Source: a bacterium
Lineage (GTDB): Bacteria; Actinomycetota; Acidimicrobiia; Spongiisociales; UBA5794
Length of the DNA stretch: 32,945 nucleotides
Direction: 5' to 3'
Assembly (NCBI GenBank): GCA_024228555.1
Contig: JAAETI010000856.1
Span: 1 to 32,945 of the forward strand
Part shown: positions 13,772 to 17,396 of the stretch, in pieces
How positions within the stretch are numbered: the stretch's first letter is position 1
Layout of the letters: every line of letters starts with the position of its first letter
Made by a program: the position numbers and the translations under genes
Notes under the pieces: model-generated
What the model was told of the DNA's origin: nothing
Database searches by the model: none
The model's input: the letters and a program-made list of their open reading frames with translations, nothing else

Positions 13772-13918
13772 CGACGGTGCCGCGGCGAGGCGATCCGAGA
13801 GCATTGCGGTGGTCTGGTATTGGTACCGCTCGACGCACTGCATGAAGAGCTGGTGCTTGCTCCCAAAGCCTCGACAGAAGCTGCTCTTGGGACCAATCGA
13901 TCCAGCATCGCCAGTGAA
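13772..13918 (-). pseudogene. Relic of a TetR-family helix-turn-helix region
   Basis: The minus-strand frame contains IGPKSSFCRGFGSKHQLFM followed by CVERYQ and LSDRLAA. This matches the second half of a TetR helix-turn-helix and the start of helix 4 (typically GxSKSSFYxHFGSKxxLF). The preceding helices are not recognisable, and the reading frame runs on into unrelated sequence, so no functional regulator remains. TetR genes often sit beside acyl-CoA metabolism genes, consistent with the acyl-CoA synthetase relic directly downstream on the same strand. Confidence 0.6.
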
Positions 13919-14006
13919 CGCCAAGACGCCGTCAGTTGGCATCTGGTTCTTGGTCTTGCCGGGTCCTGGCGGTACTGTCGATCCGAAGCAAGAAAGGCGA
14001 TCACTG

Positions 14007-15266
14007 GTGGGGTCCAATTCGGGAAGTTGGTGGCGCTGCGTCGCCATGGCGTTGATTGTGTCGGCGCTTGGCCTTGGGGCGCCTGCCCTGGCTGATGAGC
14101 TGCCGACGTTCACCGACGACGAGTTCAATGATCTCTTCACCAACGCCACTCTCGAGAACCTGGCACCTCTCGAAGTACCGCCCGCGATCACTGGGAACGC
14201 ATCGGTTGATCAGCGAATCCGAGAGATCGGTGAGGCCAAAGGATACGTGCGGAGGCCCCTGCCGGCCGGGCAATTGACCAGCGTCAGCGGATACCCCATG
14301 CAACCGTCGGCGGTTGTAGCGTGGAAGGAGCTGAAGGCGGCGGCAAGCCAAGCGGGTCATACGCTGCTCCTCCGCTCTGCATATCGGAGCCACGGTACTC
14401 AGGTTCACATTCTGCTCCGGCGACTGACGTCCTATACGGACGCCGCTATCGAATACCGGCTCCGCGCGGTTGCCGTTCCCGGGTACTCCAAGCATCACAC
14501 GGGTTATGCCATCGACATCACGCAGCCCGGCTACGCGTTTACAAGCTTCAAGAATTCGCCCGCGTACAGCTGGCTGGTGGCCGACAACTACGCAAACGCC
14601 AAGCGCTACGGATGGATCCCCAGCTATCCGCCGAACGCGACTTTGCAAGGGCCGCTACCGGAGGCTTGGGAGCTCACCTATGTCGGCATGGACAACATCT
14701 GGTGCTACGGGTTCGAGGCATCTTCGGAGAACTCATTCTGTGACGACCGGAATTCGGTTTTTGAAGCCGATATTGAATGGATGGTGGGTGCCGGTCTCAC
14801 GACCGGCTGCAACCAACCTCTCGGTGATCGGTTCTGTCCGGAGGACCTAGTTACGCGGGGCGAACTTGCGGCGTTCCTCAATCGTGCCCTGGGAGACTCG
14901 TTGTCGTTGGTTGGTGAACCGATCACCTTTGCCGATACGGTGGATTCAGTATTCGCCGAGGACATTGCCTGGCTCTCTGCCACCGGGATCACCAACGGAT
15001 GTGGTGAGGACAGCTTCTGTCCCACCGATCCGGTAACTCGTGGCCAACTGGCTGCATTCCTAGTGCGAGCATATTCCTATGACGATGCGGGCCAAGGCGA
15101 CTTGTTCATTGACGATGACGACTCGATATTCGAGGACCAAATCGAAAGACTGGCGACAGCCGGGGTCACGACAGGCTGCAACCCGCCGGAGAGCAACCGC
15201 TATTGCCCGCAGGATCGTGTGACGAGGAGTCAGCTGGCGGCCTTTCTCCGGCGGAGTATCGAATAG
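14007..15266 (+). CDS. Secreted VanY/M15-like D,D-carboxypeptidase with three SLH-like repeats
   Basis: A 419-residue secreted protein. GTG 14007 is preferred: AAAGG at 13993-13997 is 9 bases upstream and it opens a signal peptide ending GAPALA at residue 29; ATG 14046 would shorten the signal. The peptidase M15 domain spans about 75-230, with YRSHGTQ, then SKHHTGYAID (161-170) fitting SxHxxGxAxD. The usual ExxH ending reads E-A-W-E (219-222): the catalytic Glu is kept but the third zinc ligand is Glu instead of His. Residues 250-296, 314-357 and 373-419 are three SLH-like repeats, each with a GC...(F/Y)CP cysteine pair and VTR(G/S)xLAAFL. The protein probably trims peptidoglycan stem peptides or binds the wall. 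Confidence 0.85.
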   Translation: MGSNSGSWWRCVAMALIVSALGLGAPALADELPTFTDDEFNDLFTNATLENLAPLEVPPAITGNASVDQRIREIGEAKGYVRRPLPAGQLTSVSGYPMQPSAVVAWKELKAAASQAGHTLLLRSAYRSHGTQVHILLRRLTSYTDAAIEYRLRAVAVPGYSKHHTGYAIDITQPGYAFTSFKNSPAYSWLVADNYANAKRYGWIPSYPPNATLQGPLPEAWELTYVGMDNIWCYGFEASSENSFCDDRNSVFEADIEWMVGAGLTTGCNQPLGDRFCPEDLVTRGELAAFLNRALGDSLSLVGEPITFADTVDSVFAEDIAWLSATGITNGCGEDSFCPTDPVTRGQLAAFLVRAYSYDDAGQGDLFIDDDDSIFEDQIERLATAGVTTGCNPPESNRYCPQDRVTRSQLAAFLRRSIE

Positions 15267-15634: not shown

Positions 15635-16852
15635 TCAGTCGGCCAGCCAGCCCCGAATGTGGTCGTGCACCTCAGGATCTGAGGGGAGGTCGAAGTGCCG
15701 TTGTCTGCCCACCACGAGGACATCGGATGCCGCGACGCTACGGTTTCTTCCAATGCCGGTGGCGCTGCCAACCCGCACCACTAGGTCTCCGACCAAGGCA
15801 CCGACAGGATGTGCCGCGTCCGCGGTGACCACCCCGGCGATGAAGTGCTGGGCGACCCCAGCGGGAGGGGCTACGTCCTCGGCGACCTTTTCGACCAGAT
15901 CGTCCTCGTCGACTTGATGTGTACCGGCAGTGGTCCCAAACCGAAGATCCTTGATGCCGGCGCTCCTGCCGCGCAGAAAATCACCAAGGGGCCGACTCTC
16001 TGGGGCAATGTTGAGCCCCCAGGCGATAACGTTGGCCCCTTTCTCCAATGGCGATCCGAGGTGCGGAGTTCCAAGCGTGATCAGATGATCGACACTCTCT
16101 GCCCACATCTGATCCGTAGCGAGTGCGAAGTCGAGAGCACTTCTGGCAACCAGCCCACCCATTGAATGACCAACGAAGGAGATGCTGGTGATTGGCGCCG
16201 GCCAACGGTCGACCAGGCCATCGATGATGGTCGCAAGCAGCTCACCGTTGTCGGGGATACGCCGTCCGGTGTTGTACCGCACGAAGATGGGCACCATTCC
16301 GTCGTCGGCTATCTGATCAGCCAGTGGGGTTGCAGCGGCGGGTGTCCGCTGCCAGCGCCGTTCGGTCTCTCCGAGACCGTGAAGCATGATGACCAGCCGC
16401 CCGCCCGGATTCTTGAAGTTTGCTGCTGGGTCCGCTGCGGCGACAGGCTTGCCATCGCGATCATGGAAGGCCATGGCAATCGCAAGCCGACTATTGCGGG
16501 CGTCCAGTTCGTCACCCCAGAGCGCGTTGGCCGTGGCTTGGAGTCCGCTGCCGAGGCGAGAGTTTCCCGAGTGGGGATTGTTGCCCTTGGTGAGAACGGC
16601 CGCAGCAGGAGCCAGCGCACCCAGCGCTCTAGCGCTGAGCCGTACCCCGCCGTAGATTGCTTTGGTCGCGCTGTCGTAGCCGCGGCCGACCCGTTCGCCG
16701 GGTTTGCCTGCCAACCGCAGCCATCTGGCGGCGATGGCCCGATGCATGCCTTCCACCGGGGTCACGACCTGATCGACCGTCAGAGAGAAGAGCTCACCCA
16801 TTGCCCACCAGTCGTCGCCAGCCGATGGGTTTGGCTTGGAATTGCGTTGCAC
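15635..16852 (-). CDS. Alpha/beta hydrolase (lipase/PGAP1-like)
   Basis: A 405-residue hydrolase. GTG 16850-16852 has GCGAGG a few bases upstream on the minus strand. The N-terminal 130 residues are helical and unassigned. The hydrolase core begins near 150 with LVIMLHGLGETERRW (oxyanion HG) and continues to GHSMGGLVAR, the nucleophile elbow, then LITLGTPHLGSPLEKGA, as in PGAP1-like and triacylglycerol lipases (PF07819/DUF676 type). A late acidic stretch and VGRQRHFDL probably supply the acid and histidine. There is no signal peptide, so it should be cytosolic or peripheral. It faces the Ddn relic tail-to-tail. Confidence 0.83.
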   Translation of the reverse strand: MQRNSKPNPSAGDDWWAMGELFSLTVDQVVTPVEGMHRAIAARWLRLAGKPGERVGRGYDSATKAIYGGVRLSARALGALAPAAAVLTKGNNPHSGNSRLGSGLQATANALWGDELDARNSRLAIAMAFHDRDGKPVAAADPAANFKNPGGRLVIMLHGLGETERRWQRTPAAATPLADQIADDGMVPIFVRYNTGRRIPDNGELLATIIDGLVDRWPAPITSISFVGHSMGGLVARSALDFALATDQMWAESVDHLITLGTPHLGSPLEKGANVIAWGLNIAPESRPLGDFLRGRSAGIKDLRFGTTAGTHQVDEDDLVEKVAEDVAPPAGVAQHFIAGVVTADAAHPVGALVGDLVVRVGSATGIGRNRSVAASDVLVVGRQRHFDLPSDPEVHDHIRGWLAD

Positions 16853-16901: not shown

Positions 16902-16935
16902 CAGAGAGGCCCCCGCGGTGGCGGGGGCCTCTCTG
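16902..16935 (-). terminator. Perfect 15-bp hairpin, terminator of the RRM/Cys-rich operon
   Basis: Bases 16902-16916 and 16921-16935 are exact reverse complements (15 bp, GC-rich core) around a GGTG loop. Read on the minus strand the hairpin begins 11 bases after the stop of the 54-residue Cys-rich gene and is followed by TGTTTCG, a weak U-tract. On the plus strand no T-run follows. It also separates this unit from the alpha/beta hydrolase gene starting at 16852. Confidence 0.8.
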
Positions 16936-16946
16936 CAGTCACGAAC

Positions 16947-17111
16947 CTAAGTCCGCTTCTTTTCCGGTATTTCGTCCGGCAGTAGGTATTCAGCGCAGGG
17001 ACACCTGGGTACGGTGCACCCGATGTCGCTGCGGTGCTCTACTTTGGGGTGACCACAGCCGACACATCTTTGTCGTCCGCCGTCAACCGGTCTCGGTCGA
17101 GCTGTGCTCAA
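16947..17111 (-). CDS. 54-residue Cys-rich (putative zinc-binding) protein, TTG start
   Basis: This short gene follows the RRM gene. TTG 17109-17111 overlaps the RRM stop as TTGA, implying translational coupling, and the stop TAG is at 16947-16949 just before a strong hairpin. The product has an Arg-rich start, then CVGCGHPKVEH, then GCTVPRCPC, ending in a charged tail PEKKRT. The CxxCGHxxxxH...C....CxC layout resembles small actinobacterial proteins of unknown function and is compatible with one zinc site. Overlap, cysteine spacing and the terminator placement support it as real; no family name is claimed. It may act with the RNA-binding protein or simply share its transcript. Confidence 0.68.
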   Translation of the reverse strand: MSTARPRPVDGGRQRCVGCGHPKVEHRSDIGCTVPRCPCAEYLLPDEIPEKKRT

Positions 17112-17362
17112 CGGGAGCGTTCTTTGGCCTGGTTCACGGTGAGGTCACGGCCGTCGATGTTCTTGCCGTTGAGCTCTTCCATAGCTGTTGCGGCGGCATC
17201 GGCGGACGCCATCTCGACAAAGCCGAAACCGCGGGAGCGGCCGGTGTCCCGGTCGGAAATGACCTGAGCCTTCACAACCTCGCCGTACTCCTCAAAGAGG
17301 GCCTGGAGGTCAGAGGATGAGGTAGCGAAGGTGAGGTTGCCTACGTAGATGTTTGTGGACAT
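17108..17362 (-). CDS. RRM-domain RNA-binding protein
   Basis: An 84-residue single RNA-recognition motif protein. RNP2 is IYVGNL (5-10), RNP1 is RGFGFVEM (44-51), and the fold ends with GRDLTVNQAKERSR. ATG 17360-17362 is supported by AAAAGGAG 8 bases upstream; a longer frame exists upstream but lacks support. The size and lack of a glycine-rich tail match the small bacterial Rbp family, which binds RNA and in cyanobacteria responds to cold; that role here is inference. It is translationally coupled to the Cys-rich 54-residue protein. The leader contains a GC-rich hairpin (17397-17410). Confidence 0.92.
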   Translation of the reverse strand: MSTNIYVGNLTFATSSSDLQALFEEYGEVVKAQVISDRDTGRSRGFGFVEMASADAAATAMEELNGKNIDGRDLTVNQAKERSR

Positions 17363-17396
17363 GTTTTGTGCTCCTTTTGAAGCGTTGGACCGTCGG

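Follow-up and report, generated by a model that had tools for sequence, protein, structure and literature searches.

On the minus strand of the window (the whole 32,945-nt stretch of DNA analysed here), the gene for a small RRM protein ends in a stop codon that overlaps the start of a short, cysteine-rich (Cys-rich) open reading frame, and a hairpin follows. This layout raises the questions of whether the short frame is a gene, how it would be translated, and whether its product works together with the RRM protein.

An RRM gene overlapped by a Cys-rich frame

The stop/start overlap, the Cys-rich frame and the spacing of the hairpin were all confirmed on the minus strand as an earlier, sequence-only reading of the window had described them (Table 1). 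The upstream product is a clear RRM protein: it matches Pfam RRM_1 with an E value of 6e-24 and 84.1 bits, against a gathering threshold of 20.7, contains both RNP motifs (RGFGFVEM and IYVGNL), and has close relatives at 68–80% identity. Its TGA stop has two bases in common with the TTG that opens the Cys-rich frame, and from the preceding in-frame stop to the first cysteine no other ATG, GTG, TTG or CTG codon occurs. The resulting 54-residue product is MSTARPRPVDGGRQRCVGCGHPKVEHRSDIGCTVPRCPCAEYLLPDEIPEKKRT, and the hairpin begins 11 nt after its stop codon.

Table 1. Features of the RRM/Cys-rich locus, in window coordinates.
Feature	Position	Strand	Details
Shine-Dalgarno AAAGGAG of RRM gene	17371..17377	-	8 nt 5' of the ATG; direct reading
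RRM protein gene	17108..17362	-	84 aa; ATG start 17362; TGA stop 17110-17108
SD-like AAAGAA	17120..17125	-	last RRM codons Lys80-Glu81, 8 nt before TTG
TTGA overlap, 4 nt	17108..17111	-	RRM stop TGA and Cys-rich start TTG; direct reading
Cys-rich protein gene	16947..17111	-	54 aa; TTG start 17111-17109; TAG stop 16949-16947
Cys/His motif RCVGCGHPKVEH...CTVPRCPC	17011..17066	-	13 invariant columns in 17 relatives; putative metal site
Perfect hairpin	16902..16935	-	arms 16902-16916/16921-16935; 15 bp, 100% complementary; loop 4

The Cys-rich frame is conserved as a coding sequence

We found the Cys-rich frame at the 3' end of an RRM gene in 21 distinct loci from 20 genomes, always in the -1 frame relative to the RRM gene. 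The motif C-x2-C-G-H-P-x2-E-H-x(4-6)-C-x4-C-x-C is nearly invariant among these relatives, and 13 columns (R15, C16, C19, G20, H21, P22, E25, H26, C32, V34, P35, C37 and C39) do not vary in the 17 members aligned; in L053, which lies beyond these 17, Q replaces E25. The invariant positions include five Cys and two His, where zinc-finger micro-proteins are recognised by at least four potential ligands, and these seven conserved residues suggest a putative metal site.

Substitutions among the 21 pair loci also follow the reading frame. The pN/pS ratio of the Cys-rich frame is 0.52, as compared with 1.24 and 1.25 for the two shifted frames, and mean pS/pN is 0.68/0.36 in frame but 0.37/0.45 and 0.36/0.45 once the frame is shifted; dN/dS among close Cys-rich pairs ranges from 0.08 to 0.31. 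Because both the frame and its cysteines are conserved in relatives and are under purifying selection, the observation in the window is more than a product of chance. Examination of the relatives revealed neither a lack of conservation nor stop codons in the frame, and the synonymous bias anticipated by the sequence-only reading is present. From these sequence comparisons, it is well supported that the short frame is a real, conserved protein-coding gene.

Distribution of the Cys-rich gene

Tblastn searches with the Cys-rich protein (E ≤ 0.01) retrieved matches from 16 of 50 genomes of the sampled GTDB family, two of them weak, and a scan of genome contigs of the same family identified eight Cys-rich loci. 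In a profile search of 395 genomes of the class, matches with E values below 1e-8 came only from the window's own order, and genomes outside that order gave only chance-level scores. Confident matches fall in families f1 to f5 and f8, across which the frame and the motif are kept, with the exception of the overlap details in f2 and f3. In a phylum-wide sample, the Cys-rich protein was retrieved only from the window genome and from one genome of the same order, and the RRM type, sought in twelve genomes, was present only in those of the same order. Comparisons with Pfam and NCBIfam yielded no match above the cut-off for the Cys-rich protein of the window, and only chance-level matches for the other members. 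The Cys-rich gene is thus an order-restricted small-protein gene and gives a little-studied order of bacteria a further conserved family of small proteins, apparently one without a name.

Linkage of the RRM and Cys-rich genes

The RRM gene is by far the commonest upstream neighbour of the Cys-rich gene, which it precedes in 25 of about 38 distinct loci; in three of these the two genes are set apart. In L017, L058 and L059, the Cys-rich gene lies 170–480 nt downstream of the RRM gene and has its own ATG, and in L061 (genome G309) the two genes adjoin in the other frame and the junction lacks an NTG; candidate starts for the Cys-rich gene of L061 are a TTG 19 nt upstream or an ATT. The genes that flank the pair are not in common between loci, save for a hydrolase at L017 and L048, indicating that the two genes stay together even though their surroundings differ. 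The persistence of the overlap among changing flanking genes supports the functional unit that the sequence-only reading had proposed.

Within the GTDB family, the Cys-rich gene occurs in 10 of the 14 genomes containing this RRM type versus 6 of the 36 that lack it (Fisher p 4e-4, a value that ignores shared ancestry and genome incompleteness). Linkage is not strict, since in at least 13 loci no RRM gene was detected close to the Cys-rich gene, and four close relatives of the RRM gene (L063–L066) have no Cys-rich gene, with a hairpin closely after the RRM stop in at least those inspected; neither gene, therefore, requires the other. A literature search covering few subscription journals, and some sources only in part, returned no paper on the RRM/Cys-rich pair.

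Several loci show other arrangements. In L071, L072 and L073 (about positions 1450–1530, in gene orientation), the Cys-rich gene overlaps by TAGTG a conserved membrane-type ORF of ~127 aa, and a SufB-like gene lies downstream in two of them; in L020, it follows a short charged ORF with an ATGA overlap. In L015/L031 and L052, it follows closely on the 3' side of a small Lys-rich ORF (MANKDKGGRRSKK... and MGSKDKGGKHVK...), and a similar Lys-rich stretch separates the RRM and Cys-rich genes in L017. L019 (the same as L049) contains, before an intact Cys-rich frame, a shrunken RRM-like ORF with an internal gap of 26 residues (E 0.24), which still ends in KERSQ with a GTGA overlap and is possibly a relic.

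A candidate two-gene unit

We consider it probable that both genes form a unit in which translation reinitiates at the overlap, a metal-folded Cys-rich protein acts with the RRM protein, and the hairpin ends the transcript. The ribosome would end the RRM protein at UGA and re-initiate on the overlapping NUG (UUG in the window), which would yield the 54-residue Cys/His protein, and the hairpin would then terminate the RRM/Cys-rich transcript. The Cys-rich protein would most likely fold around a metal ion, probably zinc, and could act with the RRM protein, for instance as an extra RNA- or protein-contacting module supplied in a fixed ratio.

Comparisons of the Cys-rich protein with known structures gave limited guidance. 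A PDB search retrieved no relative; its AlphaFold model is of modest confidence (mean pLDDT 70.5), with a core that is predicted more confidently (block means of 74–85 over residues 11–40), and fold searches with this model gave no significant match. The mycobacteriophage protein M4WA09 (46 aa) was rejected as a fold relative, having a probability of 0.90 but an E value of 0.12. The nearest relative is the actinophage family phrog_6114, to which 16 of 17 members give a match at E ≤ 1, the best with an E value of 7.9e-6; the window member alone matches it with an E value of 0.025, a remote similarity. One protein of this family, gp67 of Gordonia phage Affeca (39 aa; MIRQPCAGCGHDRVLHHTDGPCVVRHCPCRHHHETETRT), shows the same C-x2-C-G-H-x4-H-x4-6-C-x4-C-x-C spacing but, unlike the Cys-rich genes paired with RRM genes, is encoded in an early-type phage cluster near a RuvC-like gene and with no RRM. 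The same 39-aa Cys/His ORF is present, without a gene call, in Gordonia phage Geodirt (L084, positions 1495–1611). A scan of viral contigs produced 47 pattern matches, none of which was confirmed as a relative of the Cys-rich protein.

As described in PMC10716476, the Haloferax micro-proteins HVO_0758 and HVO_2753 are also charged, single-domain proteins of about 55 aa with a CxxCG motif, although in this comparison by motif and size the window family has H-x4-H plus C-x4-C-x-C in place of their second C(P)XCG; the same paper reports that some such zinc-finger micro-proteins bind no zinc. On the side of the RRM protein, the cyanobacterial Rbp1-3 and the Bacteroides RbpB are likewise compact proteins with a single RRM (Pfam RRM_1), but the titles and abstracts of PMC9333190 and PMC11697453 report no overlapping Cys-rich gene.

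From sequence, the likeliest function of the Cys-rich protein is that of a metal-binding partner of the RNA-binding protein, where we infer the binding of metal, RNA and partner; with it, a bacterial single-RRM protein of the window's order would for the first time have a candidate partner. This role is likeliest rather than established because the structural model is modest, the nearest relatives are phage proteins, and copies for which no RRM gene was detected occur behind other ORFs. Its main rival is a freely associating, independent small protein, perhaps phage-derived, which would lodge downstream of strongly expressed genes and profit from their translation, with the RRM gene as a convenient host and not a functional partner. 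Copies behind other ORFs (L071–L073 with TAGTG, L020 with ATGA), the small actinophage proteins as remote relatives (phrog_6114, Affeca gp67) and the occurrence of RRM genes without the Cys-rich gene all agree with such a protein; however, the predominance of RRM genes upstream (25 of about 38 loci) and the persistence of the NTGA overlap across several families make it unlikely.

Probable translation at the overlap

Among the 21 same-frame loci, the overlap takes the form NTGA in 20 and TAATG in L010, whose RRM gene ends in TAA with an ATG directly on that stop. The overlap codon is CTG in nine loci, TTG in seven, ATG in three (including that of L010) and GTG in two; it begins with the wobble base of the last RRM codon, which usually encodes Arg. 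The loci constitute a natural NTGA series, with the start codon set by the preceding Arg wobble base, on which the tolerance of reinitiation for CUG could be probed. In the CTG loci L011, L012, L013, L016, L018, L024 and L053, the stretch from the preceding in-frame stop to the first cysteine contains no ATG, GTG or TTG; that of L018 and L024 also lacks AUU, AUC and AUA. CUG is a poor start codon and yet is the commonest overlap codon here, so the output of Cys-rich protein may be low. In many relatives, AAAGAA, AAAGAG or AAGGAG is found 8 nt before the overlap; this SD-like motif may be a by-product of conserved Lys-Glu codons. Because its codons specify the Lys-Glu conserved in the RRM protein, and because RRM-only relatives have it as well, it constitutes weak evidence.

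In the -1 frame every TGA stop yields an NTG, so that NTGA alone cannot separate reinitiation from programmed -1 frameshifting near the RRM stop, which would produce an RRM-Cys fusion and leave NTGA as a mere by-product of TGA. The constant -1 register in the 21 pairs is compatible with frameshifting, under which the frequent CTG would need no explanation. Against this, the last 90 nt of all 21 RRM genes contain no X-XXY-YYZ slippery heptamer, the TAA stop of L010 bears an ATG, the detached copies start at an ATG of their own, and in-frame RRM-Cys fusions were not observed; we therefore regard frameshifting as very unlikely. The L010 junction, the detached copies and the missing heptamer favour reinitiation, and the Cys-rich protein is probably translated, to judge from these sequences, by termination-reinitiation at the RRM stop.

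The RRM/Cys-rich pairs resemble the reinitiation-coupled overlapping pairs of Huber et al. (2019, 2023) in their 4-nt or 1-nt overlaps and in the SD-like motif inside the upstream gene, but differ from them in that many start with CTG, which is not among the codons ATG, GTG and TTG. According to PMC6728339 and PMC10666635, short gene overlaps are tightly coupled in translation and are generally enriched for subunits of heteromeric complexes.

The sequence-only reading had also supposed that gene callers miss the Cys-rich gene for its shortness. The gene is likely often overlooked, as supposed, but gene callers usually apply a minimum of 30 codons, which its 54 codons exceed. The cause would probably be less its length than its non-ATG start, which is TTG in the window and CTG at nine of the 21 loci, and CTG-start genes of the NTGA kind would escape annotation systematically. 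We also entertain a bolder proposal, which we rate as unlikely, that the RRM and Cys-rich proteins are a two-chain bacterial counterpart of the eukaryotic RRM plus zinc-knuckle proteins, whose ratio depends on reinitiation at a start codon that is kept weak on purpose and dictated by the wobble base (CUG, UUG, GUG or AUG), and that gene callers refuse when it is CTG.

The hairpin as a likely terminator

The hairpin is far more stable than shuffled sequence, with a folding z-score of -6.0; its T tract is short (TTTCG), and a scan for consensus terminators did not call it. Among 19 relatives tested, 13 have a hairpin of at least 10 bp that starts 8–55 nt past the stop of the Cys-rich gene; these hairpins are unrelated in sequence, and the median hairpin score across relatives is matched by 2.8% of random windows. 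Downstream hairpins recurring with unrelated sequences fit a terminator, and the hairpin is likely the transcription terminator of the RRM/Cys-rich pair. That the Cys-rich ORF is untranslated and its conservation reflects an RNA element or an overlapping regulatory function is hardly credible, even with a strong hairpin ending the region, since changes concentrate at synonymous sites only in the Cys-rich frame, the other frames contain stops, and the hairpin sequence is not conserved.

Other genes in the window

An alpha/beta hydrolase gene (PGAP1/DUF676-like; 15635-16852) follows the hairpin on the same strand at a distance of 50 nt. Beyond it, the stretch 13809-15263 encodes a D-Ala-D-Ala carboxypeptidase domain of the VanY type and, after it, S-layer-homology-like repeats in which cysteines are conserved (TTGC..FCP). 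In L017 and L048, a homologue of the window's alpha/beta hydrolase is located directly upstream of the RRM gene.
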